From: Tubulanus polymorphus | Lineage: Eukaryota > Nemertea > Palaeonemertea > Tubulaniformes > Tubulanidae | Length of the DNA: 64,000 nucleotides | Direction: 5' to 3' | NCBI RefSeq assembly: GCF_964204645.1 | Contig: NC_134029.1 | Span: 5,713,001-5,777,000, forward strand | Part shown: positions 17,534 through 62,885 of the stretch, one piece after another | Numbering within the stretch: the stretch's first letter is position 1 | Layout: every line of letters starts with the position of its first letter | Position numbers and translations under genes: made by a program | Notes under the pieces: generated by a model | The model's input: only the letters and a program-made list of their open reading frames with translations | Databases searched by the model: none | What the model was told of the DNA's origin: nothing

Positions 17534-18038
17534 ACAGACCCTCGAAACTTGCAAATCCCCTGATTTTCCTTTGTAGTTAGTTGTGTATAATATGGCTCTC
17601 CAACACTGGTAGGCAAACACGCCTAGCACAAGATCTCATATTATTATCAACGGATGTTTTTGGAATACCAGTGTATGGAGTTATTTCGTGGATAACGAAA
17701 TTGCATGTGCCATAACAATTGATAGTATCATAACATGTGTCATAACAATTGATAGTATTTTTCCCATTTTCATATCCCATTTATCCATCGTTTATGAAAT
17801 TGCAACTACGCCCAGTCAGTTTCCCTCGGGGACCTCTGGATCGCCCGCGGAACTGTGACATGGATTCAAGCGCCGAATGTACGATCACGTGATAAACCGA
17901 TAACTAAGTGGGATAATAGATCCTCCTGCTGGAAGTCGAATATTCATTTGGATATATCGCCACTTTTTCAGTTCTCCGAGGTGGACTGTTTTCTCTTATC
18001 CGTCCAAAAAGACACCATCCGCTGTATACACCAGCAGG

Positions 18039-18224
18039 GCTGCCAACCCTGCAAAGTGCTATCAGTAACAAGATGAATCTTTTTTCAGAAGCATGTTCAA
18101 ATTATCAGTAATCAAGTTATGACCCTCAGTTACATCTTTCAGCATCAAACAAATCAAAACAGTTGTTTTGGACAAAAAAATAACAAAATACTGAAAACCA
18201 GGAACAGTCGACAGCTCTGAACCA
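18039..18224. repeat. dispersed repeat, copy 1
   Basis: Clearly related to 45723-45961. Shared blocks in the same order are GGCTGCCAACC, AAGTGCTATCAG, ATCAGTAATCAA, GTTACATCTTTCA / GTAACATCTTTCA, AATGCTGAAAA / AATACTGAAAA and GTCGACAGCTCTG. Confidence 0.75.
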
Positions 18225-18497
18225 GGGAGGAAAGGCTCTTCAATGCTTTGAATACGTAATATCCATACCGAGACGTGTGTGGTGAATAGCTTTGATTGGA
18301 TAAAAGCAAATTCCACCCTGGATAGCGTGGGAAAGGCCAATAGTTCCTACTGTACACCGCGTAGGTAGCAATTCGCCTAGTCCTCATGTAAATCAAGACA
18401 GCGAAACCACATGGATACAATACCTCAGACATAAAGACTCCAAATTCGAATAACATCAACTACAACAACCGAAGATCTACATATTAAACCAAATGTT

Positions 18498-19601
18498 TTT
18501 ATTATTAAACAGATTTGATACAATTTAAATCTAATTCACATAGAAAATACATATATAAGTCGTATCTTTCACTCACTACTGATGACAATGATGATAGCAG
18601 GTGATTTAAAAATGATTCCGAATAAAAAATGCTGCAATAAATGACGACGAACATATATCATGAAAGAAAGGGTTTGGTTTCATTCTCTATCAATTATTGA
18701 TAAATGCAAGCCGAGCTAAAAAGCGATTCGAACCGCCACCAACGCCCTTTAACGAAAAAAGGAAGCCCTTCATGATATAACCGATAACGATGAAAAATCT
18801 GAATGAATTCATCCAAGAAATTTTACTGAACGGACTACTTGCGGGGAGGGTATCGAAATACAAACGTTATCAGCAGAAGGTACTTGAATGTTTCGGTAAT
18901 ATCATATTGACTACTTCTGAGAAATTGCTCTCGCACCCGCTGGTGGTACAATAACAATAGAATACAGAAAAGCTAATGGAATAATGAATGAATGAATGAA
19001 TGGATGACAATATTGTAGTATTTGACAACATTCGAAAAATGAAATAACAATATCCACTACTAAATCTCAAATCAAATATCTGTTCTTTTTTTTCTATCTC
19101 GGCTGTGCCTATCGTGATAATTTCACTTCTGATAAAAGATACGAAGATCTATTTTTAACTCTCATACTTTGATCTAAAACATATGTATATGAATATCTAG
19201 GACTACGGGGTCCGAGGGGCAACTGTACAAAAATACGATGCATCAATATCTGGCGAACATTTGCCACAAAATACATGATAATAGATTTACTGAAAATTCG
19301 AAATAGTCCAAATTACAAGAGCGAATCACAATATTTAACTTCACTTCATTGATATACCAAGTGTTATTACTTATAAAACGATGCAGTTAGATTTTTCTTT
19401 TACCAATTGCGTCAATTAATAAATTGATGAAACGCCATTTCGAAAGAGTTACTAATAAAAAATACCGCAATAAAAACATTATTAATATTATTCGGTTATA
19501 AGCGTAAATATGTACAGCGAAATCATCGATCCAAAATGCGTCAAGGTTCGGTAACTTCACGGTTGGTGTTGTTTTGGTTGGACCGATTCTGTTTTTCGTG
19601 T
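18498..19601 (-). terminator. HNRNPK 3' UTR and poly(A) signal
   Basis: About 1.1 kb of non-coding sequence after the HNRNPK stop. It ends in an AATAAA on the minus strand (TTTATT at 18498-18503). The 3' UTR contains an (AATG)n run near 18983-19003. The UTR end is inferred only from the signal. Confidence 0.55.
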
Positions 19602-22600
19602 TCACCATTTGGCACTGCCATACTGTCTTGCGCTGTAAGTATACAAATGTATAGAAAGATAAGCCATTGTCGTTAGGTCAAGGAAAAAGTCCAGCCATCA
19701 TGCGCCATTCAATCACTCAGCACATTTTCAGCACCAGTTAGAATTTCTCATAGTATCGAATTGATGGGTTCGGCACACAGGCTAACAATGAGAAAAGAAA
19801 TAACTAAGGCAAAAATTCCAAACGGCGGCAGAGGCTTCGAGTGAGTAACACCTCATCCATGAACACCCAACAAATAATATGATGCGTCTGACATGCGTAT
19901 TTTTCTGTCAAAAATATTTTGACCTTTCGACAACCTTTTTACATCAAGTCGAAACCTGTTAATGTTTCACCAACAAACAACAATCCAATCAGGGAACCGC
20001 CGCTTAAAGAAAACCCCTATCAGATTACGTGTTGAACTAAAAGTCTTCAATAGAATTGCCCCAGTGATGCTTACAGTCCGAAGCAATCGCGTGCTCGAAG
20101 TTCCAGCGTCGACGATGATTTTCAATTAGCACAGTACGAGAAGATAGTGATTCATTGTTCGTTAATCAGCGAAACAACAAAATCACTAGTCTTCCAGTCC
20201 GGACTAATTATAACTCTCTTCCTTGATAATGAATGCTAGAGTGAATGAAATCAACGCTCACTGTTCATTCATTGCACAATAACACGACATAGGGTTCCGT
20301 TACTGGTAACTACTGTTCTAGGAGACTCGATAATCTTATCTCTGAAATGGGTCTCGACACCATCCGAAAAAATTAGAATATGCAAAATCATTACTATCAT
20401 TTCAATCAAAAAAGGCTAAATTCAAAAGGAGGCACTCCTGAGACTTTGTTTCAGAGTGGTGCACTCGGTACAAATGAATTAATCAATAGCGAAAGCGTTC
20501 ACTGAAGCCCAACTCTGCACAGACAACCAGGCCACAAGGTAATTATACAAAATATCAATAAATCAATCAATCGATTAGCGATCGATAACTCTTTCTCTAT
20601 ACACAGTTACAACTTTCGGTTTCTATGTTGAGATATTTTTATGAACACGATCTTTACAAATAGACATTGCCTCTTATACATCCAGATCCAGTATGAGATG
20701 AGTATGAAATGTCTGATTAAAAAGGCTCATCATTCGTCCTACACTTAAACTCGCTCAAATCATCATAGTTGGAATGATCATTTTGTGGACAATTTCCGGA
20801 AATTGAGTTGTAAATACAAATTCGGACCAACGAACTAGAGATTTCGATCGAGTTTGAGTGTATGAAACTAAGATTTTTAAACGCTAGATCGCACGAACAT
20901 TTTTCAAATTACCTTTGTTGTAGAAGGAATTGCGCGAATTGGATTTGTTCCGGAGTACCGGTGATGGTAATAATGCGATCGTTAGAATCGTCCTCTTCGT
21001 CGTTGATGGTGATCCCCGCGTTCGTTCTCGTGCGAATGTTCTGAATGCGACTGCCGTTTTTACCGATGATCGCACCGGCCATCTACAATACACACAAACA
21101 AATTCATTACTACCATACTTTTAGTAGTTACTTCTAAAACAATCAAGAGTCGAAGAGGAGCTGCGTACAAACTTGTATTTCTAACCCTGAGATCCATAGT
21201 CTCAAAGAATGCAAGAAATTTCTCAACTGGATTTTGGAAGTTGAAAGTTTACTACTTACATGGTTCGGAATGGTGACTTGCGTCATTTCTTTTCGACCGC
21301 CTGGGTTTTGTCCTCTGAACATCATTCCTTGGCTGCCTATTCCTCCGACAGTGTCCTGGTCAAAGTTCTCGCACATATTACTACCACCAATAGCTATAAT
21401 ATATAAACGCTTAACAAATGAAGAGTCCGTTTTGAAAGTAACAACCGAGCAACAAAAGTCATACGTTACTAAACTTTCCAATGGATATGTTTGCAAATTC
21501 CGCCTATTTGTCCATCAACTTTTTCCAATTTTCAAGTAATTAATGATGAACGAAGATAAGATTTTGAACCAGAGGCAGGAAAGAAGTCTTACAATAATTG
21601 TTCGATATCTAACGATCGACATATGAAAGACTAGTGGACGTACACTCCTCAGCAATTTTCCTACATGGAGATGTAGGTCTGTTTCAAATAGTCGGTTGGA
21701 AGTTTTCCTACATTATACATATATTTGATGAGGCAGCATTTATAGCCATGTATCGCATACAGCCTGCAGGCAAGGTGTGCCCGCATCTTGCCAGCAGAAC
21801 TGAGCTGTAATGCTGACACTGCAATCAATTCTGCAAATAATTCCACATTTTCTCGATGTTTAGCTTGTAATCGATAAAGCATTTACATATAACATGATAG
21901 AAACATCAAATGAAAATAGGATTGATTTCCGCAAACGGCTTTTTTGTTGTTGGGGTTGAATCGTAGTTCAGTAAAGACTTGCCAGTTAGCTTCAATATGT
22001 TCTTACACAACCAAGTAGATTCAATGCATCATTAAGCTAAAACTCATTGGCTCATTTCAGGTTATGAGATCACAGTAAGGTCGACTTCTGTAACTGCTAA
22101 CTTGATCAAAGAATTTGATCGCCAACATAGTAGTGGTTTATAACTCACCTCCCATAGCTCCACTATTTCCATAACCATCACCCATTCTACCTCCGCTGGA
22201 ATGATGAAGAATGAAAAAGTTTTACAAAAAGATCGAATAATTAAACACGGAAAACAAATGTCCTTCCATTTCTTCTTCGATGTTTCCTTCTTAACCGAAA
22301 GTTCCGATGTACGGTACATACCTCATTTGCATGTTCATTCCACCACGTCGGTTGCCGCCACCATCTCGGTCGCGTCCACCGCCATACCCTCCGCGGCCGC
22401 CTCCATCACGTCGGCCTCCACGGTCACCGCCACCTCTGCAGAACAAGAAACAAGCTGTGTTCATGAAATAATCAAAATAATGGTTTCTCACTTTGTTGAC
22501 TTAATTGAAACCAACCAAGTACCGGACCAGTAACTATAGATACAATTTAAAGCTTTGTTCAAGAATTCAACTGTTCTTTCTTCATTATCAACGCCCTGTT

Positions 22601-25600
22601 AATTCCTCGACATTTCTTACCTTCCTCGTCCGCCACGACCTCCGCGATCTCCGTAACTTCTTCCACCGCTTCGACCACCTCCGCGTTCCATGCCAACATG
22701 GCCGCCGTACTCATCGGCGCAGTATTCATTGGCGTTGTACGGATCGTACGGATTGCTCGGTCCTTTCGGCGGAGCTTGCTACAAAATACGACGACAAGTA
22801 TAAACTAAGACTCCATGTGTAACCCATAAAATATCCTTCGAAACCCTCTTTTCAACTGAATACTGAACAACATCCCGACATAAAACCCAATTTTCCTTTG
22901 TAGATAACACATTAACATATTATCATCTGCCAATCATCTGAACCAATCTTCGCAAATTATCAAGTTAACAAACACTGAGCGCTTCTTTGTGCCCTTAGAA
23001 AAGGCGACTATTAGGGCTGGGCCACCGAGCATTTTTCGCTTACGTTATGCAGAAGTTCGATGATCGTTCCGATGCAGTTGACGACGTCGACCGGTTTGTT
23101 GCCGATCAGAATCACTCGCTCAGTCGAATCCGGGCAACATTCGGAGAACACTTTGATCTTCGTATTCGTCTGCTCGCGAAGTTCCTTGATCTTGTAGCCG
23201 GCGCGACCGATGATACAGCCGGCCTGGCTCTGGTGAACGAGCATACGCAACTCGCAGTCGAAATCCATGTCTTTGTAGTTTTGATACTGAAATTGGAACG
23301 GCGTGAAATGACACTCAGAAGCGACATCTTAAAGCTTAAGGAAGGATTTTTTAATTTTGAAATAGGGATTGATATTGTAATCTATTCGATTGGTAAATTT
23401 CGTTTGATTAGGTTTGCCTTAAGGATTTTAGGTGCCTGACTGAACTTCTAGATTTCACAGATTTAGCTCTTTTTATAGTGTTAACACATACGAAAATGAA
23501 ATACTTTCAATTGCTGAGTTACTCTGATTGACATATGTGATACTGGGTCTTAAGCACAACTTTAATTTGTTTAATTCGTAACTGGATAAAAACAGGCCAA
23601 TCTTATCTGAATTCTTGTATGTTACGTGAAACCAGCGAATGTTTCGATAAATCTATTAAACAAGATTACAGAGTTCGAAGCTTCTCAATATTGACGATGT
23701 TCATTGAGCAGCATTTTCTCTGCTTTTTCTCAAGTAAAATATCTCGATCGGAAAATCAACTATCGAGGATAAACGACATTTCACCGAAAGATCAGTTGCT
23801 CCTTTTTGTGTACGTCGCACAAAAAGCCGACGACGAAAATAATTTCAAGGCTTCAACGACACTTACGTCTTCCAGGGTCGGGATGATGTCGAGCAAACAT
23901 TCGAGTACCGTTCCAAGGTGAGCGGAGATCGTCAAAATCCTGCAATTGATTTCGAACAGTACAGTGAGCGAGGCGAACACATCCACGGTAAAGGACAACA
24001 TTCTATACAAAGAGTTACTGACTATATATATATATAATGTTTATATATCTGGTATCTTTAGGCCAAGAAAATCATCATTTCAATTCAACAGTCATATACG
24101 CAACTAAGTTAATCGAATCTTAAACTATTTGACATCAGAGTTATTATCATAGATATACATAAAAAAGGCTGTTATTATCATAAGGCAAACTGATGAATAA
24201 TGTAAATAGATCTGAAGTGAAGATTCGATTAAAACCGCCACCGAGTTTCGGGCAATGCTGGCTGAGGTGTAATAGCACAGATTCCATACTTATGATTAAA
24301 AAAAAAAAACACCGTTTATGTGTAGCAATGTTTCGAAATATTATCACAGTTAATTTTGATATAAGATGGCGGTGGCAGAAAGAGATAGAGAGAGGTGCAC
24401 AGGGTTAGGATCTAGGTTCTCGATTGTCTCATTAATATCACATTAATTAAGCTGCTATGCCCCGATTATGACAATTATCTATCTAAAAACACATATGCAT
24501 TTCATTCGCATATGTATTTTATTCACATTGAACATATCTTAAAGAAATAAAGTCCGTTCAATCGCGGAAAAACGGAGAAGAAATAAATCGGCAGAAAATT
24601 TAGCTTCATAACGCCGTTTTCGCGAGAAACATTCACGCAAGAAAACGAACTCGAATTTCTATCAAAATGCAACGACTTCCACCAAATGCAACCACTTCTT
24701 TTCGTAATCGTCAATGAGGGCGATACATGTGTATGTTAATATAATATCAGTGCTTAAAGAGAATTTCTTCTTGAAAAAGCAAGTGATAGGAAAGAAATGT
24801 GTCTCGTCTGGACAAGTGGAAATGCGGTCGATTTACTTTCGAGATTAGATGCTTTTTTTAAAAAAACGATTTCAAAATTGAATTCATTCATGGATTTTGT
24901 CATTATCAACTTTCGAAATATTTTCATATAACGTCAAAATCGGGCAAGAGATGAAAGAAGATGGTCTCGGAAAATAGTGAATCAACGTTGTAATAATATT
25001 TTCTAATCGGTGGAGGACGGCAAAGAACGTCTTAAGACTATCATTCAATGATAACGATCACGATCATACCGAATAACGATTCGAATACAATGTAAAAAAA
25101 AAAAATAAATCAAAGAAAGACAACATGCGTAAGAAACATGATGATGACGGTTCTAACTGAACTAGCCAAAAACAGTATTACAGACACGAACGGTCGATTA
25201 AATGGTAAACGCCAAAGTAACATTCATCCAAAATATCACATAATCATGAATGACGCACGAATGAGATTTTTGTGTAGTCGAAAGCACAATGCAGTAGTAA
25301 TAAATAATCCGATTAACCGGTTTAAATAATGAGTTTTCACAAGAGGAAGCATTAGGATTTTTCAGCGACTGTATTTCTGCACAGTTTTCGTCTTTGCGCC
25401 AAAACCACGCCGCAATTCATCGATACAGACAGTGATGTCTCCATGAATTCCAGGAGCTGCAGTTGCTCAAAGGCTGGTTAACGATACCCGGACTCAGTTC
25501 CACAGTTGTGAGTTAGGGTTAACTCAGAGTCAAAATTAGTTCATTTTCAATTAGTTAACTCCGAGTAAAATCTTAACTCGCAACTGTGGAACTGGGTCCA

Positions 25601-28600
25601 GACCTATTAATACCATAGTAACGATGCAATTTTAATTGTCACTATGTCAACTATCCACTGGTTAACTAACTCTAACCAACTTATGAGCAACTGGGCCCAG
25701 TACAGACAATGATGTCTCTATGATTTTCAGATATTTTTTCCACAAACATTGCAAGGCGAAAAAAAAAACGTCGCCAATTTTCCCGCCGTAATTTCGTAAT
25801 TGGCACAGAGGCATCACTGTTGTCCTTTTCCGACATAGACGGCACGAGTTGGTAGTTTAGGGTGGACTAGACCGAAGGCCAAGGTCACGGACATGGCAGA
25901 AAAACAGTTCTTGAGCGGACGCTATTTTCATACGGTAGCTAGTTAAACTGGTTTAACAAATCAGGTCAAAAACCGTACGTTAAATCTGCATCATAAGGAA
26001 TAATAAGGAATTCATAGCGTACTAACAAGACGTTCTATACTAATAGCCCATTTCGATCCCGAATCGCCGATTAAAAAAGGAAGAACAATCAAGGAACACA
26101 GTGTTCAGGAAATAGTGTTTAAAAAAAATGGGCTAGAAGTATCATCAGTAAGGAAGCTATACAAAGATCAAATATTGTGCACATTGCCTACAATCTGCAA
26201 ATAGCAAAAATGGTGGCAGTAGATGCAATGGTTGGCAATTCTAGGATAAATAATAGACAATTATGATGACAATAATATGACAGTGATGATGATATATTGT
26301 TAAAACTGAGAAAAACAACAAACTACAGTGATTTTTTTTCGATTTTTTTTTTCGGCACTGTATCAGAAACAGAGCTCGAAAAACATTCCCCTTTTTTCCA
26401 AGGATGGTCTCGGATGCCACCCATCTCTCTTCAAGTTGAAAAACTGTCAAAATCGAAATAATGTCCAGAAATATTTGAAAAATGCGGTTAAGGAGAGAGA
26501 GAGAGGTGGCATCCGATGTCTGAAGGGTACTGGTACGTAGTACTAATAAAAATTTGATGATTGATATTATCAATGAGAGAGATGCATGGGTGTAAATTAC
26601 CGTTCTGGGCCTTGGGAATCGGGCACTTGAACACCGGCTTGGTACTGATGATGATACAGACCGAGGGCAAGCAGGCAGATCACAGGTCACGGGCGCACAG
26701 GTCACGGGCGATTGTCGACGGGCCGTGGACGTGGTGAATACAGGCACAGGCCATTTGTAGCAGTCAGCAGGCGGTTTGGCGTACGTAGTAGAGTGTGTGT
26801 GTGAACAGGCCGATGGGACCGGACGATGGACGACGCAGGACGTTTTCGGAGATCAGGAGAAAAAGGCAGATAAAAAATGGAAACAATGTGTTATTACGGG
26901 CAAATATAAACAATTAAAACAGAATCTATAAAGAGACAGAGAGAGAGAGAGGGCATGTAATAATATCATTAATATCATTAATATTGCAAACCGGTTACAA
27001 ACTCAGGTAATCATCAACGACATACTTAATCAATCATTAACAATATTAATTACGAAATATCTTTCGATCTATTTTGCTTCGACTTTTGTTTTTTATTTCT
27101 AGTTAAGTATATTTACTGAACTTAAACAAATCTATTCATACACGGTATACTAATATATTATCAGACTACCGAGGTTCGCGGCGAAATCGCGGGTTTTCGA
27201 AAAAACACAAGCCGAAAGTCTGATTGATTTTTCGATCATCGAATTCAGCCTGAACGAAAAAAAAAAATGCTCGAATTTCACCTTCGTAGGAATTTGATTA
27301 TTCTAATGCCGATTAATAGTTTTAGTCAGTTTAACCAGAAGTTACTGAAATGATGTTTTATCGTAAATAGTTTAATTATACATAAATATAAAATGCTGAA
27401 TATTCATGTAAAATGTTGATCTATCGTATTTTTTTCACTCTTCGTTATCACAATAATGATACTACTACGTTAAATCGCGTGTACTTACCTCGTTTCTCAG
27501 TCTCTTTATGTTGCTGCCGGCTTTTCCGATGATGGCTCCAGCATCCTAAAACGAAAATTCAAACATGCAGAATTTAATACCAGTCGGACTCATCGAATTG
27601 AACGCGCGCGCTAATTACATATACAAAGCCGAAAAATTGAAGAGCAAAAATCAAGCACCGATACTATATATAGATATATATATCGGTCTGCGTATTGAAT
27701 GGTTACAATCATCAATAATTCAAACGCTATTATTATACGAACAGAACAATACAGAGCGATTCAAAACTAGGATTCATTACATTGGACATGTTCGACAAAA
27801 TCGAAATAACCTAACAAGCGTTTACTGTCCCCCGAAAACTTACTCGTTCCAGCGGCCGAAAATGATCCGTAATAGAAAACGTACAGTATTTATCCATCAT
27901 CTACGACTTATCCAACGTCGCGAGGCGAATAAGAGAAATAATTCGCGCCCGGCTTCGATCGGTCGAGCAGAAGCCGGATCTCACCGGTTAAAACACGATC
28001 GCAAAGCGTCGGATTTATCCTCGTCCGGCGACAGTACATCCTCGTAGTAAAAATAAAACCCCGGCTATAATAAACCATTTATCCACAGCAGCAGCAGCAG
28101 CAGCAGTCGTAGTAGTAGTAGCAGGTCTAGGTGTGCACCGACTCAGGGTTATCCGGTCCTCTGTGGCGTCTACTCGTCGTTAACAAGCTTTATATGAACT
28201 CGCTACGACGCTTTGTCTGACAGCCACGTTGACAACTAAATGTTCCGCCCTCTAATGTTAACCACGCCCTTCGTCGCGTGAAGACCACACCCGAATCAAT
28301 TGTTCTCGCCAATCAAACATGCGTCGAGATAACGTTTCATTCAGTTTCCTCTATACGCGATGTATTGCGTATGTATCTCTAATGTACAATAGGAGAAAAC
28401 GCATCGATTGCCAGGAATTCTTTTTTCTCGGCGATCGATATTTTTTCTCTCGGCAATCGATATTTCTTTTCTTCGTTCGAGAGTTTCGTAAAAAAAAAAA
28501 ATAAATGTATCGAAAAATTTTCTGGTCACTGTTACGATATGTACGATATGCAATTGCAATACGCGTGATATATTGATGCCACGTAATGAGCGTTTACAAA

Positions 28601-31600
28601 TAAAATTCAATCGATTCAAAAACTCCTAAGTTCACAACGCAACTTTGACAGATACTCAGTTACTGGGGTAATCAATGAGAGACACATTGAAAATTCAAAC
28701 GTAATACGCAATAGTTATCAGATGGTTGGGAAAACAGTTTCATAAGGGGGCAGAGACTCATCTTTTTAGAAAACTTTTTACCTAATTGCTTTTTTTACAA
28801 ATGTCGTACTATCTGATTTCTATTTTGCACTATATGCACTGTGTGCGCTACCATCTATCTGAATTGTAGATCTTATATATTGTAGAGCGCCTTATAAACT
28901 CAAGAATAAGGCATTGTATATACATTTTATATAATGATAAAAATAATAATAATAATAATGATAGAATTTATAATTGACTAATCCTGGGTTTAGAATTAAA
29001 TGAAAGAAATGCAGATTTTGATTGATCTTAAATTCAAATGTGTCGGTTGCAAATAAATGTTACCTATGAAGATTTCGTTCGTCGTATATATGAAAAGCAA
29101 TGATCGTTCATAGCTGATGAATTTAATATCATTAAATCTGCATGAATACAGACATTTATCGTAATTCAAAACCGCCGAATTAATTAATTTCCGTCGCGCG
29201 AACGAGCGAAAGGTAAATCCGACCAAATTAGAAATAGCGACGCCCACCCGCCTGCCCGCTCGGGCGGTGGGCTCTGGCACCGGAAAAAAGGCCACCTGTT
29301 CACTAATGAATAATAGACGGTTCGACCACCGGGACATTCGAGTGACCATTAGTACGAACGTATGTCAGCGGTTATAACTGCATCATCGACATACGTATAA
29401 ACTATATAGAGGCACGTGCCTCGTTATCACGCTGACAATGGGCCACGAATTAACGCCGCCATGATGCGAACAATATGTGTTGGCCAGCGTCGAACAATGG
29501 AACCCATTTTCGGCGAGCAAACTCATAACTTCAATATCACCGGCCGATATCAAATATGAATGAATATGTAAACTCGCAAACTACGACCATTAACAATTCA
29601 TCGGTACATTGTAAATAAATAGAGCGGGTCGAATTCCAGGTCCACCGGCGCGATCGCAGGGTGGCCACTTTCAATTGACTCGCTTTTCACCCTGACTTTT
29701 ACCTGAAATGCACGTTGTTTTTTCTTTAACTCAATCTGCTAAGAATCCAATCAATCAACACAGCCAAATACGTAAGACATAAGACGGAAACTGATCGATT
29801 TTACGCGCGCATCTTCGAAAAGTTTCCCAGACTTTACCTGACATTTAGCCTTTTCACCAAATTCCCTGACTTTTTCCCCGACAAGAAATATTGCTCGACT
29901 TCTCCCTGATTTCCAGCATCCTGGATCGGTTTTTTGATTCAAAATACACCACCTAACACCCATCCCCCGTGAGAAAAACTGTAACGGCTGTGGTCACACC
30001 CATCATCATCATCCGGCGATGAGTCAATTAAGTTCGAATTGACACCGTCTAATGGAAGAGCTTGTCGACTCTTTTTCAACGCGCAGCGTCACGACGAAAT
30101 AAAAACACGCGCGGCGCGATTACGAAACGAACGCCGCGCGCGGTGAATATACCGTCAACGAGCGAGCGAGATAATGGCTAATGCGCTTCCGGGCGTGTAG
30201 TTCACCAGAAACCGTGTCCACGGACTTCCGCCCAATAGAGATAGCAGACCGACCAACAAATGACTAAACCGACGCTTTACGCACATTCCTTCGGTGTTCC
30301 GTCGTAAGGAGTTTCTGAAAAAGCTCGCTAATCTAAAGCCGTAGTCGCAGAAAAACCAAACTCCGCTCATCATTCATTTCGTGAATAGGTACCGCTAGAG
30401 TGATCCCGTATAATTGAAAAGATCTTTCTGCAATCGCAGAAAAAACCTGCTGCAGTTGAAAGCCAGGGCTGGCTCGCTCGCAGTCATGTCCTAATGTGGT
30501 GTTATATATCACGACTTGTCTTGAGATATGTTTAGATCTGGCTATAAAACCTAGACGGACCGACATGGTCTAACTGGACATGGTCTAACTGCGCAACTGG
30601 CTCTAGGTTTCGACGGCCAACACTAGAGTTTTGTTAAAAAGTTTGAGCTAGAGCTATCTCCAACACATGCAGAGACGATTCATGGTTAACAGTTCTCCTT
30701 CGGCCTAGACCATCAGGAAAAAGAAACGTTGAGCCTACTTAAAATACGCTAGGGCTGAGAGATTGAAAAAATATATAACATCAACATGAATATTACCTTG
30801 CTTTGGATGAGAATACGCAAATCGTACTTGGGACCTTCTCCTCTGCATTTCTTCAGATTGGGATTATGGACATGCGTGTCATCTTCAGCCTGGCGTTTCA
30901 TACCACGTTGTTCTGAAATGGTGCATAAAAACATGAGAATTGAAAAAGAAAATCGGCGTTCAGCTGTAACCATTACTAAATAAGAAGAGGTGATTGCTCC
31001 CTTGGCGTATTTTATCATCGAAACAGGAAAACCCGAATATGAGCATCATTGATATGTGAGATGAGTGTCAGTTGGTGGTGGCATGTTATTTGAAATTCGA
31101 AACCAAGTCGTACTAATGAAAGAAATATAATCCCGGCCTACTGTAGGGTGTGGTGTGTATGAATACCCAGCAATAATTATAGGTCTTCTTAGTACAATGA
31201 CTGAAGCGACAGTCATTTTCAATATGGAGTTATATAACTAGCAACGTAGAAATTACGATACTTTCATGAGTTTATATGAAGGAAGAGCTTGAACGGCTTA
31301 CATTAATACATTTCTTTATCTAAAGTACCGTTAAATCACATAAGAACCAGTAATCATGAATTGATACATATTCTGGCGTACTGACAATCATTTTTGGCGT
31401 AAAAAAAAATGTAACGAATAAGGACGAATCAGACGTATGGGTTGCATGTACGTGACTAAAATGTTAAACCAACAAATTAAGTTAGGAACTCGGTTTAGCG
31501 AGTTAAAAATCTAACCCGCTACAGGGGAATTTCTACGATATGAATGTATTTAAGACGGTTTAAACGGATCGCAGACCAGTCGTTAAAGCCGATCGGACAT

Positions 31601-50939: not shown

Positions 50940-51766
50940 CAGCTTTATTTCTACAAATAAAGATGGCGCAGTAAACCCGGAAATGTCATATTTCTTGTCA
51001 CTTCACGTATAGCATAGAAATCTCAAAATCTTTGTTAAAACGTGGGTTCAGCGTCAAGGGTTCTTAAATGTCATAAACTATACTATTTCGGGAGTAGCAC
51101 TTTAAGTGTCCCTGCTATGGTAAATGCCGTCGATAATGTCATAGATGAACGAACAACCAACGCAATAGTCTGAAATACCAGGCAGTCGTTGTTTACGGTT
51201 CTGAGGAACAACGGCTAGGTACTAGACTACCCAACGCAACCGTTGTTTTTGTGAGTTTTTGGACGGTTGCAACGCCCTCCCTGCCGCTCCAGCCACACTC
51301 TTGTCCTCTCCTGAAGCCTTCAAGATTCCAAGCCTTCTTCAAGCAATTTCCTCTCTACCCATGGCATAGGCCTACCTTCCATACCAAGACCTACACCGCA
51401 GTGTTTTCAATGCTGGTACATTAGGCCGCCCTAGGGCTATATATGTTTTTTACATACTTTATGTTTATTTTTACAAAAGCCATTCGATAATCTTTTTCTT
51501 CTGTTATCTTAACACAGATGCGCACCTGCTAATAAGTACTCATCTTATGAGGCTTTAGCATTAACTGATAGATAGATATTCTATTGAATATAAGTTCTAC
51601 ACCCGGACAGTGATAGAAAGGTGACCTAAACTGCAGTAAAAAGTTGAAACCTTCCTCAATTCATAGAAATATTGTGGGTTTTTCTCCAGTTAAATTGAAT
51701 TGTAAACTAGTCTTTTATCTGAAAATATTTTCTACTTCAGCATTGACAAAACTGGAAAGAGCAACG
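50940..51766 (+). promoter_or_regulatory. DET1 upstream region and probable non-coding first exon
   Basis: A YY1-like AAGATGGCGC lies at 50960-50969. A TTCTACTTCAG acceptor at 51740, 27 bases before the first ATG, shows that a 5' UTR exon is spliced on. The start site is not fixed. Confidence 0.35.
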
Positions 51767-54101
51767 ATGCTCGGCAGCCACAGAAACCGGAAAAGCAAAT
51801 CGGACTTTCTGTCGATAATTGATTCGATGCCAACATCGACGAATTGTGGAATCGTTCCTCGCAAAATTCCCAATCAGAATATCGTTCATCGTCTTCTTCA
51901 ACGCGAAATCCACTCGTCGACCGCCGGAACGCAGTTTCACATCGCTAGAAAACTCTACACGAACGTGTTTCCAAATTTCACGATCGTAAACGTGGAAAAA
52001 CCACCGTGTTTCTTGCGTAAATTCTCGCCCGACGGACGTTACTTCATCGCCTTCTCCGCCGATCAGACGTCGATCGAAGTCTACGAGTTCTGCGGACCGG
52101 CCGCCGCCGAGGACCTCCTCGTGAACATCCGCGGCGAATACATCGCCAACGAGACCGACCCGACGCTCGTGAATATCCGCAATAAATTGTTCGAACGATT
52201 TTTCAAGTTAAAGCATGTGACGGCCGTCTCGTCGAACGGAGAACATCTGAACCGTGAATGTAGTTTATTTACGGACGACGGAAAGTACGTAATCGTCGGC
52301 TCCGCCGTTTATATACCCGAAGATCCGCATCCGTATTTCTTCGACGTTTACCGAAACAACGAATCGGTGTCGCCGAACTTACGATCGCCGCTCGAGGATT
52401 ACTCGCTGCATCTCGTCGACCTCGAAACCGGACGTCTTTGCGACACGCGTTCGTTTAAATGCGACAAGATTTTCCTGTCTCATAACCAGGGCTTGTACTT
52501 GTATAAGGACACATTCGCCGTTTTGTCCGTGCAGCAACAAACGATTCATATATTCCAGGTGACGGCCGACGGCAGTTTCATTGATGTTCGGTCGATCGGA
52601 CGATTTTGCTACGAAGACGACGAGTTGATCGTATCGGCGATGCAGCAGTCGACGGTGACGAATTCGCGGCAGGTTCGCACGTTTTGTGAAGCGCCGATAA
52701 ACTCTCTGAAACACCGGCTGCTCGTGTTTCTGCATAAACGCGCGTTGCAGGAACGCACGGCGATCGCGCTGCGTCGGTTCTATCAGTACTTCGATCAGTT
52801 CCGTTTGCTGCGCATGTGGAAGATGCAGCTGCTCGACGAGAACCATTTGCTGATCAAGTACGCGAGCGAGGAAGTCGTCACGTTGCGCATCGCCGATCCG
52901 AATTCGCAGCCGTCGTTCTTCGTCGTTTACAACATGTTGACGACGAACGTTCTCGCCGTGTTCGAGAACACGTCCGAAGAGCTGCTCGAGTTGTTCGAAA
53001 ATTTCTGCGACCTGTTCCGCAACGCGAACCTGCACTGCGACGCGCAGTTCACGTGTTCGGCATCGAGTAATATATTCGCGCGGCAAATACAACAGCGATT
53101 CAAACAGACGATTATCAACGCGAAATACGGCGGCCAAACGGAAGCCGTTAAACGCCTGCTGGCTCAGTTACCGATAAGCGGACAGTCGTACAGCAGTAGT
53201 CCTTACCTAGACTTATCCTTATTTAGTTATGACGATAAGTGGGTTTCTGTTATGGAAAGACCAAAAGCCTGCGGCGATCATCCAATCAGGTACTTCAATT
53301 TTGTGTGATGGCTTTTTGTCCCCATAATTTCTTGTAAATGGGTCTCAGATAGGTACATTGCATACATAACAAATACATGTTAGAAATATCTTTGATTTTG
53401 CAAAACGTATAAATTATTGTTTTTACTGATAGAATCGTTCATAGCCAGGCACTAGCCTATCTTACTGTTTGCTGTGAATTCGAAATTCGGCTAGGCCATC
53501 TTCTAAAATTCGTCTTGTTGAACCACTTTATGGTTCACGATCTTTTTCCATCTCAGCACCTCATTTTTCGAATGATTTGCCAAACACATGCGTAACCAAC
53601 AATCAAGGGTGATTATTAACATTTTTATCCAAAGACTGTCACTGTTTAATTGGATACATATTTTTCAAAGACCTGTAAGATTGTTTTAATGTTAAGTGCT
53701 TTTGAATAATGAATTATTATTATTATCAAGGTTGGAATTCTGAGGCCAGTTGCACAGCAAAGCATAGATTTAATATCAGTCTCAGTCCATTTTTGCTCCG
53801 TTACTGATGAATAGGCAGATGGGTCCCCTTGACACAAAGTAAACAATCATTTTACTATTTGGCGATGAATATCAGAAATATATTTTTCTCATTGTATTTA
53901 TTTTTCAGGTTCTACGCTCGGGATTCTGGTCTTTTAAAGTTTAAGATCTATGCCGGTGTTTTGGGTAGAAATCCACCACCAGCCGCTCGAAGATTGGTTG
54001 CATTTACATTTCATCCTAGCGCTCCCTTTGCTGTAAGCGTTCAAAGGACTAATGCTGAATATGTAGTGAATTTTCATATTAGACATAGTCAGTCTCAATA
54101 A
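51767..54101 (+). CDS. DET1: DET1 homolog, CRL4 ubiquitin ligase substrate adaptor component
   Basis: De-etiolated-1 works with DDB1, DDA1 and COP1 as a substrate-targeting part of CUL4 ubiquitin ligases in the nucleus. Coding exons 51767-53289 and 53909-54101 join in phase 2 (ATC AG|G TTC) at [11 protein letters not shown], a strictly conserved spot. The product is 571 residues from the first ATG; the second ATG at 51827 gives 551, nearly the human length of 550, and lines up better with the human N-terminus. Conserved runs cover the whole length: [142 protein letters not shown] and [13 protein letters not shown]. Third codon positions in the big exon are GC-rich compared with the flanks. 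An AATAAA overlaps the stop (54097-54102). Confidence 0.97.
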
Positions 54102-58431: not shown

Positions 58432-59137
58432 ATGTCTTGCTGTCATGTTTGTGGAGAAATAAGGAATCCAATGAAAAGATGCACAAGGTGCCATAACGTG
58501 ATGTATTGGTAAGTCGAAAAATCGTATTTGTTCGTTATGTCGGCTGAATGGCTTTTTTCATATCTCTACTGAGGACTTGAAGGATTCTTGGGGAAGTTCG
58601 CTCAATTACTGTATTTTCTTAAGTCAAACAAAACTACCCTTTTTCAGCTCAAGAGAATGTCAGATAAAGAATTGGCCTGAACACAGAGTGACATGCATTC
58701 CAGAAAACAATAAAAACTCCGAAACAGAGGAATCGACTCAGATGTCTCACACCACTGAGCTACCAGTCGAAGCTCGATCCGTAAATATCGTAGTTAAAGC
58801 TAATAAAACAAAGTACAACATTGCCATTCCGGAAACTTGGAACGGAGAGAGAATTATGAACAAAATCACCGAAACTGTAAAAATTCCGTTGGATAAAATG
58901 AAATTGATTCACAAAGGCAGAAAATTGGATGCAACGATTATCAAAACAACGATAAGGAATAAAGTGATTTATCAAGCTATCGGCGAGAAAAACGAGGACG
59001 AATCTGGACTAGACACAGAGGATATACTGACTCTGATGAAACAAATGTCAGTCGATCGGAATACAGCGGTTAAAGCTCTCAGACAATCTGATAACAGTGA
59101 TCTAGTTGATGCTATTATATGGCTGGGCAATAGGTAG
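58432..59137 (+). CDS. MYND zinc finger / ubiquitin-like / UBA-like protein
   Basis: Two exons, 58432-58508 and 58648-59137, join in phase 2 (TG|C) inside the MYND finger; 188 residues. The MYND finger (residues 3-42) has all eight ligands: CHVC, CTRC, CSREC and HRVTC. After an acidic, polar linker, residues about 68-137 look like a ubiquitin-like fold (VNIVVKANKTKYNIAIPETW ... DKMKLIHKGRKLD, ending near VIYQAIG). Residues about 147-186 (DILTLMKQMSVDRNTAVKAL then SDLVDAIIWL) resemble the UBA-like domain of HYPK and NAC-alpha. MYND fingers usually bind proline-rich peptides; UBL and UBA parts suggest contact with ubiquitin or the proteasome. This is inference from fold patterns. I do not know a named vertebrate protein with this order. 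Start chosen because the ATG places the first Cys pair at the N-terminus. Confidence 0.8.
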
Positions 59138-59724: not shown

Positions 59725-61740
59725 TTATGTTCCGGGTATTTTACAAGGCATCTGTTCTCCATTTAGAGCGGCGATAATATTTCGAGCGGTTAGAAGTGAC
59801 ATTGTGCTACGTGTTTCCTCAGTAGCGCTTCCTATATGCGGCAAAACGACGCAGTTGTCCAACTGTAACAGCGGGTTATCCACGGGTAATGGCTCCGGCG
59901 TCGTGACGTCGAGACCAGCCGCCCGTATTTCCCCGGATTTTAACGCTAAGTACAAGTCATCTTGGTTGACAACCGGACCGCGACTAGTATTAACTAGAAT
60001 CGCATTGCGTTTCATCTTTTTGAAAGCCTCCGTGTTGAACATGCCTTTCGTTTGATCAGTCAACGCACAAGAAACAATCACAAAATCAGACTGTTCCAGT
60101 AGTTCATCCATTGAAACGAATGTAGCACAAATTTCCTGTTCAGCTGTTTCTTTTCTGGTGTTGCCCGTGTATAAAAACCTGTCCACCCCAAATGGTTGTA
60201 GTCTCCTACCGATGGCGAGTCCTAAACCAAAAGATAATCAGTAGCCAACATGAGTATTGCAAAATTAAATTATTATACAAACACAAGTCATATTTCTGGT
60301 TTAACCTTCCTCACCTATTCTTCCCAAGCCAACGATTCCTACTGTGCTATGGTGAAGGCCTTGGCCACATAGCCACAAAGGTTGCCACGTTCCCCATAGT
60401 CCAGCCTTCACAGCATGAACACCTGAAATAAGAAATAGATTAGATCCCTTTAGTTTTGCATTAAACCTACTTTAGATTCCTTTCGCTGTACCAGTCAACT
60501 TGAAATTACAAGAATCAGTGAATTTAAATATCATTTTTTTGGTATGACTTTCTACTTAACATCTAGAAATATTGAAGAATAAACCCACAATACAAAGTGA
60601 TGTTTTGATATTTCGACTCAAATGCTATCGGCCATTTTCAATTTCAGGATTTAAACAAGAGTGCAACATAACTTTCAGAAATCGATATTGAAATGATAAT
60701 AATATTTACAGTAGGCCTATTTTTCGAAAAACTGTCAGACACTCACCTTCGGAGAGACGACGTGAAGTGTTTAGGAGTAAAGCGACAGTTAGTTCAGCTG
60801 TGGCATCAGTGAGCACTTCAGGAGTATAACCTACTGGTATTCCACGTGATTTACATGCCTCTATATCAATATGATCATAACCAACCGACATCGTTCCAAT
60901 TACTTTCAAATTAGGACCTGAAAACACAATTAAAGATTGCTAGATACGTAACAAACCGCAGTTAAGATGTGCTGTATGGTGGTGCCTCTAACCCTTACAC
61001 AATAAGATATGCAAAGTGCCCGACATAAATAGTCAAGTTGTCAGTTTGGACATTGGTCCAGTTTTTAAGTTCACGCAGTAACAGTTACTAATTAGTCAGG
61101 GTGTTCCTACAGATCAGTCATTCCTGGATGTAAGGAGTGTTCAATTTTGAATTCGCTTACCAGTAACCACCTTATTGGTTAAAATGAATTAATTTCCCAA
61201 CTGCATTAATTTAAGGGTAGTCTACAGTATAACTACAAACTATGTAGACAATAATTTTGGATTGCCTAGAAAAAATCGAAAAATCGAGGATTTTGGGCGC
61301 TTTAATCAAGTACGGTTTCTAAATCAATTCTCACTGCCCCACCGGATTATTCAGTAACCTGTCTGTGGTTTAGTTTCACAGTCAGGTATTTTCATAAGCC
61401 CATCTGATTATAAAAGCTTACCACCAACGATTAGGTAACAAACTAACCTACCTGCTGCATCAAGCACCGTAGAATCAATCTTGTCAGTTAGAAGGCAGAA
61501 AAGTGCATCGACATCTTTGATCTGTTTCAGAAGCTCTTCCCTTGATGGTGGCAAATCGCCGTCAATTTTTCTAATTTGACAGTATTTTGACAGAAGCTCC
61601 TCCCCCGCCGTGGGTACGCGTCTGGTGATTAACGCTACCGGTTTGTTATCGTTACTCGGCTGATATCTAGACATAGTTCTAAATGAATATACAATTAAGG
61701 ATCGACTATTTCGTTTCAATAAAGAAATCCACAGCTTCAT
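59725..61740 (-). CDS. GRHPR: glyoxylate reductase/hydroxypyruvate reductase
   Basis: NAD(P)H-dependent enzyme that reduces glyoxylate to glycolate and hydroxypyruvate to D-glycerate. Exons: 61452-61740, 60747-60917, 60315-60422, 59725-60221; each junction is in phase 1 and falls on conserved Gly or Glu codons. 1065 bases, 354 residues (human 328). The nucleotide fold has GLGRIG ([17 protein letters not shown]), split across an intron. Catalytic Arg, Glu and His are in [26 protein letters not shown] and [12 protein letters not shown]. Other landmarks are [11 protein letters not shown] and [20 protein letters not shown]. The first ATG adds about 22 basic, hydrophobic residues ([20 protein letters not shown]) before a second Met, which could be a mitochondrial presequence; starting at the second Met would give a cytosolic form. 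No clear C-terminal peroxisomal signal. Confidence 0.96.
61341..61435. repeat. family B foldback relative in GRHPR intron 1
   Basis: CAGTAACCT, TAGTTTCAC, GTATTTTCATAAGCCCATC and CCACCAACGATTAGGTAAC match the left arm of 8566-8764. It ends within about 15 bases of the intron 1 donor at 61451. Confidence 0.65.
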
Positions 61741-62885
61741 ATTAGGCCAAAGCAGACCAATTCAAACCGGGGACGAACGGAAATAATGGACGGCTTTTTG
61801 ATTGACTTGAATTGATATTAACAAATTCAAATCGTTTATTGACTTCTTTAGGTTAACATTGAACTATAAAATTCAAAATCAAATTTTGACTGGAGTTCTA
61901 TGATTAAACGTATCGGCAAAATGCACTGTCAATATCACGACTTTGTTTCTTTTGTAAATCTGGACTTTCCATGATCCAAGCTGTCCAGTCAGTCCTCTTT
62001 GAAGACCAAGGCGTACCCGCCAGTTTTGGGTGGCTTCACGAAACCTGTTCTAGTTTTTCATGTCAGGTGAACATTACGACGAAACCTATGAAAAAAGTAT
62101 CATTAATCGTCGTGATGGATCGTGCTTGTACACCGGCACGGAAATTATGACCAGGGTCCGGTTTCATGAAAAAGTTTAAGCTTAAATCAGTTAAGTTTGA
62201 ATTGTCCTCATTGAAAACACGAAGTAACCAATGGCGATTACACTAAAAAATTGAGTTAAACTTTCTCGTGAAACTGGATCCAGGGCGGATAACGGGCAAG
62301 GCAGGCCGTAATTCTTTGAATAATCATTTCTTCAAGGTTACTGTAAAGTAAGTTCTCTGGTGTGTATGACGCTTTTACAGTAAACCGACGAACTGTAAAT
62401 CTCGTCTACGGGGAATTTAAAAAAATAGTCTATGTACTTTAGCCGCGGATTTAAGCGGTGGTGCACTTGACACCAGAACTACAAGAGTATTAGTTCGCTT
62501 ACCTTGGAGCCTTATCGTCAACATTCGCAAAGAAACTTTAAGCCATAGAAAAAAAATCACCAACATGTTTCACGTATTCATACCACTAAATCTTCCATTT
62601 GCAAGAAAACCGCGATTAGAAAACGAATTTGAAAAGGAAAACCTTTACAAAGGTATGGATGACGTAGTATATTTTACATTCAAATCAGTGATGACAATTA
62701 AAAAACGAAGCTGAATCTAGCACAATATCGACTTCTGACAACCCGAACCAAACAATTCAAATGTGATTAACAGAGGAAAAGCATTTTCGTTTACGAAAGA
62801 ACTTGAAAGACAATGTCATTTTTCTTTAAAACACCAATTGCGCGAAAATTCCAGGGTTAAGGACAATAATATCCGACAAACTTGA
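61741..62885. other. intergenic with foldback element
   Basis: GRHPR upstream region plus the 3' region of the next minus-strand gene. It contains the foldback element at 62153-62284 and no supported exon. Confidence 0.45.
62153..62284. repeat. foldback element, family E
   Basis: CCAGGGTCCGGTTTCATGAA-AAAGTTTAA on the left and TTAAACTTTCTCGTGAAACTGGATCCAGGG on the right form inverted arms of about 30 bases, inner parts also partly complementary (TTAAATCAG / ACACTAAAAAATTGAG). Confidence 0.75.

Follow-up and report, generated by a model that had tools for sequence, protein, structure and literature searches.

The microRNA mir-7 is known from within the gene for hnRNP K in several animals. In Ciona, it lies in the last hnRNP K intron and points in the same direction as the gene, and its position in human and Drosophila has been called similar (PMC6829576). 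The human copy concerned is hsa-mir-7-1, within HNRNPK, and the Drosophila gene sits in bancal, the fly homologue of hnRNP K. In the nematode Haemonchus, mir-7 was found in the hnRNP K homologue, and strong selection for the arrangement has been inferred (PMC3282659). Among spiralians, we found no report of mir-7 in the last intron of hnRNPK, within a literature coverage that is incomplete; one paper concerns Schistosoma japonicum, a spiralian whose sixth hnRNP K intron carries an intronic microRNA, which is named there as a different one, miR-3148 (PMC2785426).

Here, we describe the mir-7 locus of Tubulanus polymorphus, using a window of 64 kb (the whole stretch of DNA that was analysed, to which all positions refer unless a contig is named) from an assembly that is largely chromosome-scale. 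The locus shares with Ciona intestinalis the microRNA, the host, the strand, and the position in the last intron, although the two animals belong to different phyla and the Ciona miR-7 is described without the terminal U present here (PMC6829576). With human hsa-mir-7-1, it has the mature sequence, the host, and the strand in common, the position being published as comparable; with Drosophila, an arthropod, it shares the microRNA and the orthologous host. The hco-mir-7 of the nematode Haemonchus contortus is sense intronic in the orthologous host, as is the copy studied here (PMC3282659). We consider it nearly certain that the window contains the orthologous, single-copy spiralian mir-7, which still resides in the last coding intron of hnRNPK, its ancestral host. 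As the arrangement has already been published in other phyla, T. polymorphus adds one more example to it, a spiralian one that joins those of chordates, arthropods, and nematodes.

Results

All 23 bases of miR-7 (TGGAAGACTAGTGATTTTGTTGT) are present without a mismatch at 20196-20174 of the minus strand, exactly as an earlier note on this DNA had claimed for the host strand, and the sequence is a 5p arm with the seed GGAAGAC. Chance is a poor explanation for the match: in 100 shuffled versions of the window, nothing matched even at three mismatches or fewer, and about 8e-6 exact copies of the 23-mer are expected per genome of 267.8 Mb. When up to two mismatches were allowed, the whole 267.8-Mb genome contained a single copy, and a genome-wide search with the Rfam mir-7 model returned one locus, identical to that of the 23-mer. 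The human genome, by contrast, carries further mir-7 copies. The 23-mer was found neither in 257 Gb of prokaryote DNA nor in IMG/VR; miR-7 being an animal gene, its absence from prokaryote and viral collections is expected. The features of the hairpin are as follows:

20123-20210, minus strand: mir-7 stem-loop, with upper stem, apical loop, and 14-nt basal stem (RF00053 positions 1-91; fold z -4.3)
20174-20196, minus strand: miR-7-5p, the guide strand (exact match; sole genomic copy)
20136-20156, minus strand: predicted miR-7-3p, the star strand, AATGAATCACTATCTTCTCGT, with ends placed to within 2 nt on either side from the pair table of the fold and 2-nt 3' overhangs
20114-20117, minus strand: CNNC motif (CATC), at about +19 relative to the predicted Drosha cut

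The 116 nt at 20225-20110 of the minus strand fold at -35.5 kcal/mol, against -21.96 ± 3.15 kcal/mol for shuffled versions (z -4.3), and none of 200 shuffles was equally good. The result is one long unbranched stem-loop with small bulges, in which the 5' arm carries the mature strand; in the pair table, the paired stem extends from 20210/20123 up to an apical loop of 8 nt, and 14 nt separate the stem base from the 5' end of miR-7. The earlier note had proposed this very fold as a check of its hairpin, and the paired opposite arm, short loop, and basal stem that it described are all found, its span of 20124-20209 being correct to one base. Downstream of the predicted Drosha cut, the CNNC motif listed above is accompanied by more at +22 and +25 (for the role of the motif, see PMC6298569), and a basal UG motif is absent from the 25 nt upstream.

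With cmscan, the hairpin was aligned to the full length of the Rfam family mir-7 (RF00053, positions 1-91) on the minus strand at 51.8 bits (E 4e-10), a score that has to be read as borderline, the gathering cut-off of the family being printed as 51.8 bits: the gathering-mode scan of the window omitted the hairpin, and the genome search counted it as over the cut-off. The modest score is explained by the divergent loop and basal stem, with the mature arm not at fault. A first alternative is that the mir-7 sequence survives as a dead remnant whose processing has been lost. Flanks and loop clearly differ from the Rfam consensus, but the mature sequence is intact, the pairing and the basal stem have been retained, and the genome has no other mir-7; we thus regard a remnant as exceedingly improbable. 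A second possibility concerns the opposite strand. The plus strand of the hairpin can be aligned to the mir-7 model as well, with a score of 21.4 bits, and might yield an antisense product, such that microRNAs would arise from both strands. The complement of any good hairpin will give some score, however; 21.4 bits are far below the cut-off of 51.8, more pairs are broken on the plus strand, and we find such a product very unlikely. The preferred reading remains that of an intact mir-7 on the minus strand.

No other microRNA family reached its gathering score in the 64-kb window, and the matches below the threshold were judged to be chance or repeats. A MIR5565 match at 25486-25605 on the minus strand, within an hnRNPK intron, scores 39.7 bits against a cut-off of 80 and is probably a palindromic repeat.

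The hairpin is flanked on the same, minus strand by exons of hnRNPK:

~30.8 kb, minus strand: first coding exon
near 27.5 kb, 26.6 kb, and 23.9 kb, minus strand: likely pieces of KH1
23044-23286, minus strand: KH2 exon, 5' boundary approximate (Pfam KH_1, E 1.2e-14)
22621-22778, minus strand: exon with RGGRGGRGR
22322-22435, minus strand: RGG-rich exon
21260-21393, minus strand: exon with the start of KH3, 5' boundary approximate
20913-21082, minus strand: exon with most of KH3 (Pfam KH_1, E 1.6e-18; human hnRNPK KH3 is the best PDB match)
19633-20912, minus strand: last coding intron, host of mir-7; 1,280 nt, GT...AG, phase 2, from predicted splice sites
19602-19632, minus strand: coding part of the tail exon, (S)ARQYGSAKW-stop, where LLQQSARQYG aligns with human LLQNSVKQYS

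The identity of the host is carried by KH3 and the tail, with the KH2 and RGG exons lying upstream. Among solved structures (PDB), KH3 and the tail match human hnRNPK best (E 1.6e-20), and they rank for hnRNPK above FUBP, NOVA, IGF2BP, and PCBP. The predicted donor of the mir-7 intron is AAAG/GTAATT at 20912, and the predicted acceptor is ACTTACAG/CGCAAG at 19633. Across this predicted intron, which in phase 2 splits the Ser codon of QQ-S-ARQY, the joined frame of the KH3 exon and the tail exon is open and then reaches a stop; the joined tail was compared with its human counterpart, NAQYLLQNSVKQYS. Alternative acceptors for the tail exon were rejected, since the one at 19633 alone yields a tail that resembles the human hnRNPK tail. 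The tail exon stops after ten residues and, as the exon that follows the mir-7 intron thus carries the tail to the stop, the intron is the last coding one; a further intron may lie in the 3'UTR. With the splice sites predicted, this upholds for the coding sequence what the earlier note had said of a final intron between KH3 and a short tail exon, and its remark that the position is as in vertebrates is supported from the literature (PMC6829576).

Discussion

The very old linkage that had been claimed for this locus is real, but it is also already published, for human, fly, and Ciona (PMC6829576) and for Haemonchus (PMC3282659). With the present case, mir-7 is seen inside hnRNPK in deuterostomes, ecdysozoans, and spiralians, and at least for Ciona and the present animal the intron is on record as the last one. 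The finding of an intact, ordinary mir-7 ortholog is solid but expected: an old linkage that was already known is confirmed, and no new one is revealed.

By analogy with relatives, we can propose how the gene would be transcribed, cut, and used. The hairpin would most likely be transcribed within the hnRNPK pre-mRNA, to which a private intronic promoter may add. Drosha and its partner, together the Microprocessor, would cut the basal stem ~13-14 nt above its base, and Dicer would then take off the loop to give miR-7-5p, the arm presumably chosen; this strand, once loaded in Argonaute, would repress mRNAs through the seed. Support for microRNA machinery comes from part of a Dicer dimerisation domain found in the genome, which also has other standard microRNA hairpins, those of bantam and miR-1992.

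Alternatively, mir-7 could be made mainly from its own intronic promoter, independently of hnRNPK, as has been argued for mir-7 and bancal in Drosophila. The 5' end of miR-7 lies ~715 nt downstream of the intron donor, and the intron sequence in between offers sufficient room for a promoter. The expression patterns of mir-7 and bancal differ in Drosophila, according to a paper that cites earlier work (PMC2835999), and in Ciona the expression of mir-7 and hnRNP K is without overlap (PMC6829576). For vertebrates, on the other hand, it has been proposed that the two share one transcript and that post-transcriptional control accounts for the tissue pattern (PMC6298569). We consider production mainly from an own promoter conceivable but doubtful, and keep to transcription with the host as the likelier main route.

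The control known from vertebrates acts on the apical loop. The loop of human pri-miR-7-1 is bound by HuR and MSI2, which restrain cutting in cells other than neurons (PMC6298569, PMC5462424). The human mir-7-1 loop, UGUUGUUUUUAGAUAACUAAAUCGACAACAAA, has a U5-UAG stretch (PMC5462424), whereas the loop here, UGUUGUUUCGCUGAUUAACGAACAAUGAA, is without one; in UUUCGCUGAUUAACG, there is neither a UAG nor a run of four U. Lacking both the U5 run and UAG, the loop does not lead one to predict HuR/MSI2 control from the sequence, and its difference suggests, on this basis, that the regulation of human miR-7 by HuR and MSI2 does not have to be an ancestral trait. A bolder and, in our view, unlikely proposal is that the position and phase of the locus have been fixed since the bilaterian ancestor, with splicing or processing of the intron depending on mir-7, and that the vertebrate loop control was added later. 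If this were true, the Tubulanus gene, in the same place but with a different loop, would serve to separate the two.

Direct feedback of miR-7 on its host is unsupported, as no 7-mer seed site is present in the hnRNPK exons read or in the presumed 3'UTR (18480-19602), taken down to the AATAAA at 18503. The only TCTTCCA within 18000-31000 is at 30059 and is intronic.

A few other microRNAs and genes were noticed. The genome was searched with patterns that we take to be those of miR-1992 and bantam, and the hairpins found support this identity. A bantam-like hairpin (TGAGATCATTGTGAAAACTATTT, -30.9 kcal/mol) lies at C4:23009802-23009824, its sequence departing from the search pattern by two changes near the 3' end. 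Six miR-1992-like stem-loops are arranged in two tandem clusters, with two at C1:25379119-25379417 and four at C7:4272950-4273862; in each, the 3' arm carries the mature sequence, and they fold at -36 to -44 kcal/mol. The clusters are an expansion of a spiralian microRNA, MIR-1992 having been described as Spiralia-specific (PMC6468455). Together with the bantam-like hairpin, they assign the genome to Spiralia on its microRNAs. Telomere motifs of the kinds tested were absent from 3 kb at four contig starts, and a search of the assembly for mitochondrial COX1 gave no match. Within the window, a homologue of DET1 occupies 51617-53305 on the plus strand as an open frame of 563 codons (Pfam Det1, E 2.2e-163), an open frame at 58502-59134 on the plus strand combines a ubiquitin-like domain with a HYPK-type UBA domain, and a D-isomer 2-hydroxyacid dehydrogenase, which is probably a glyoxylate/hydroxypyruvate reductase, has exons at 59728-61761 on the minus strand.
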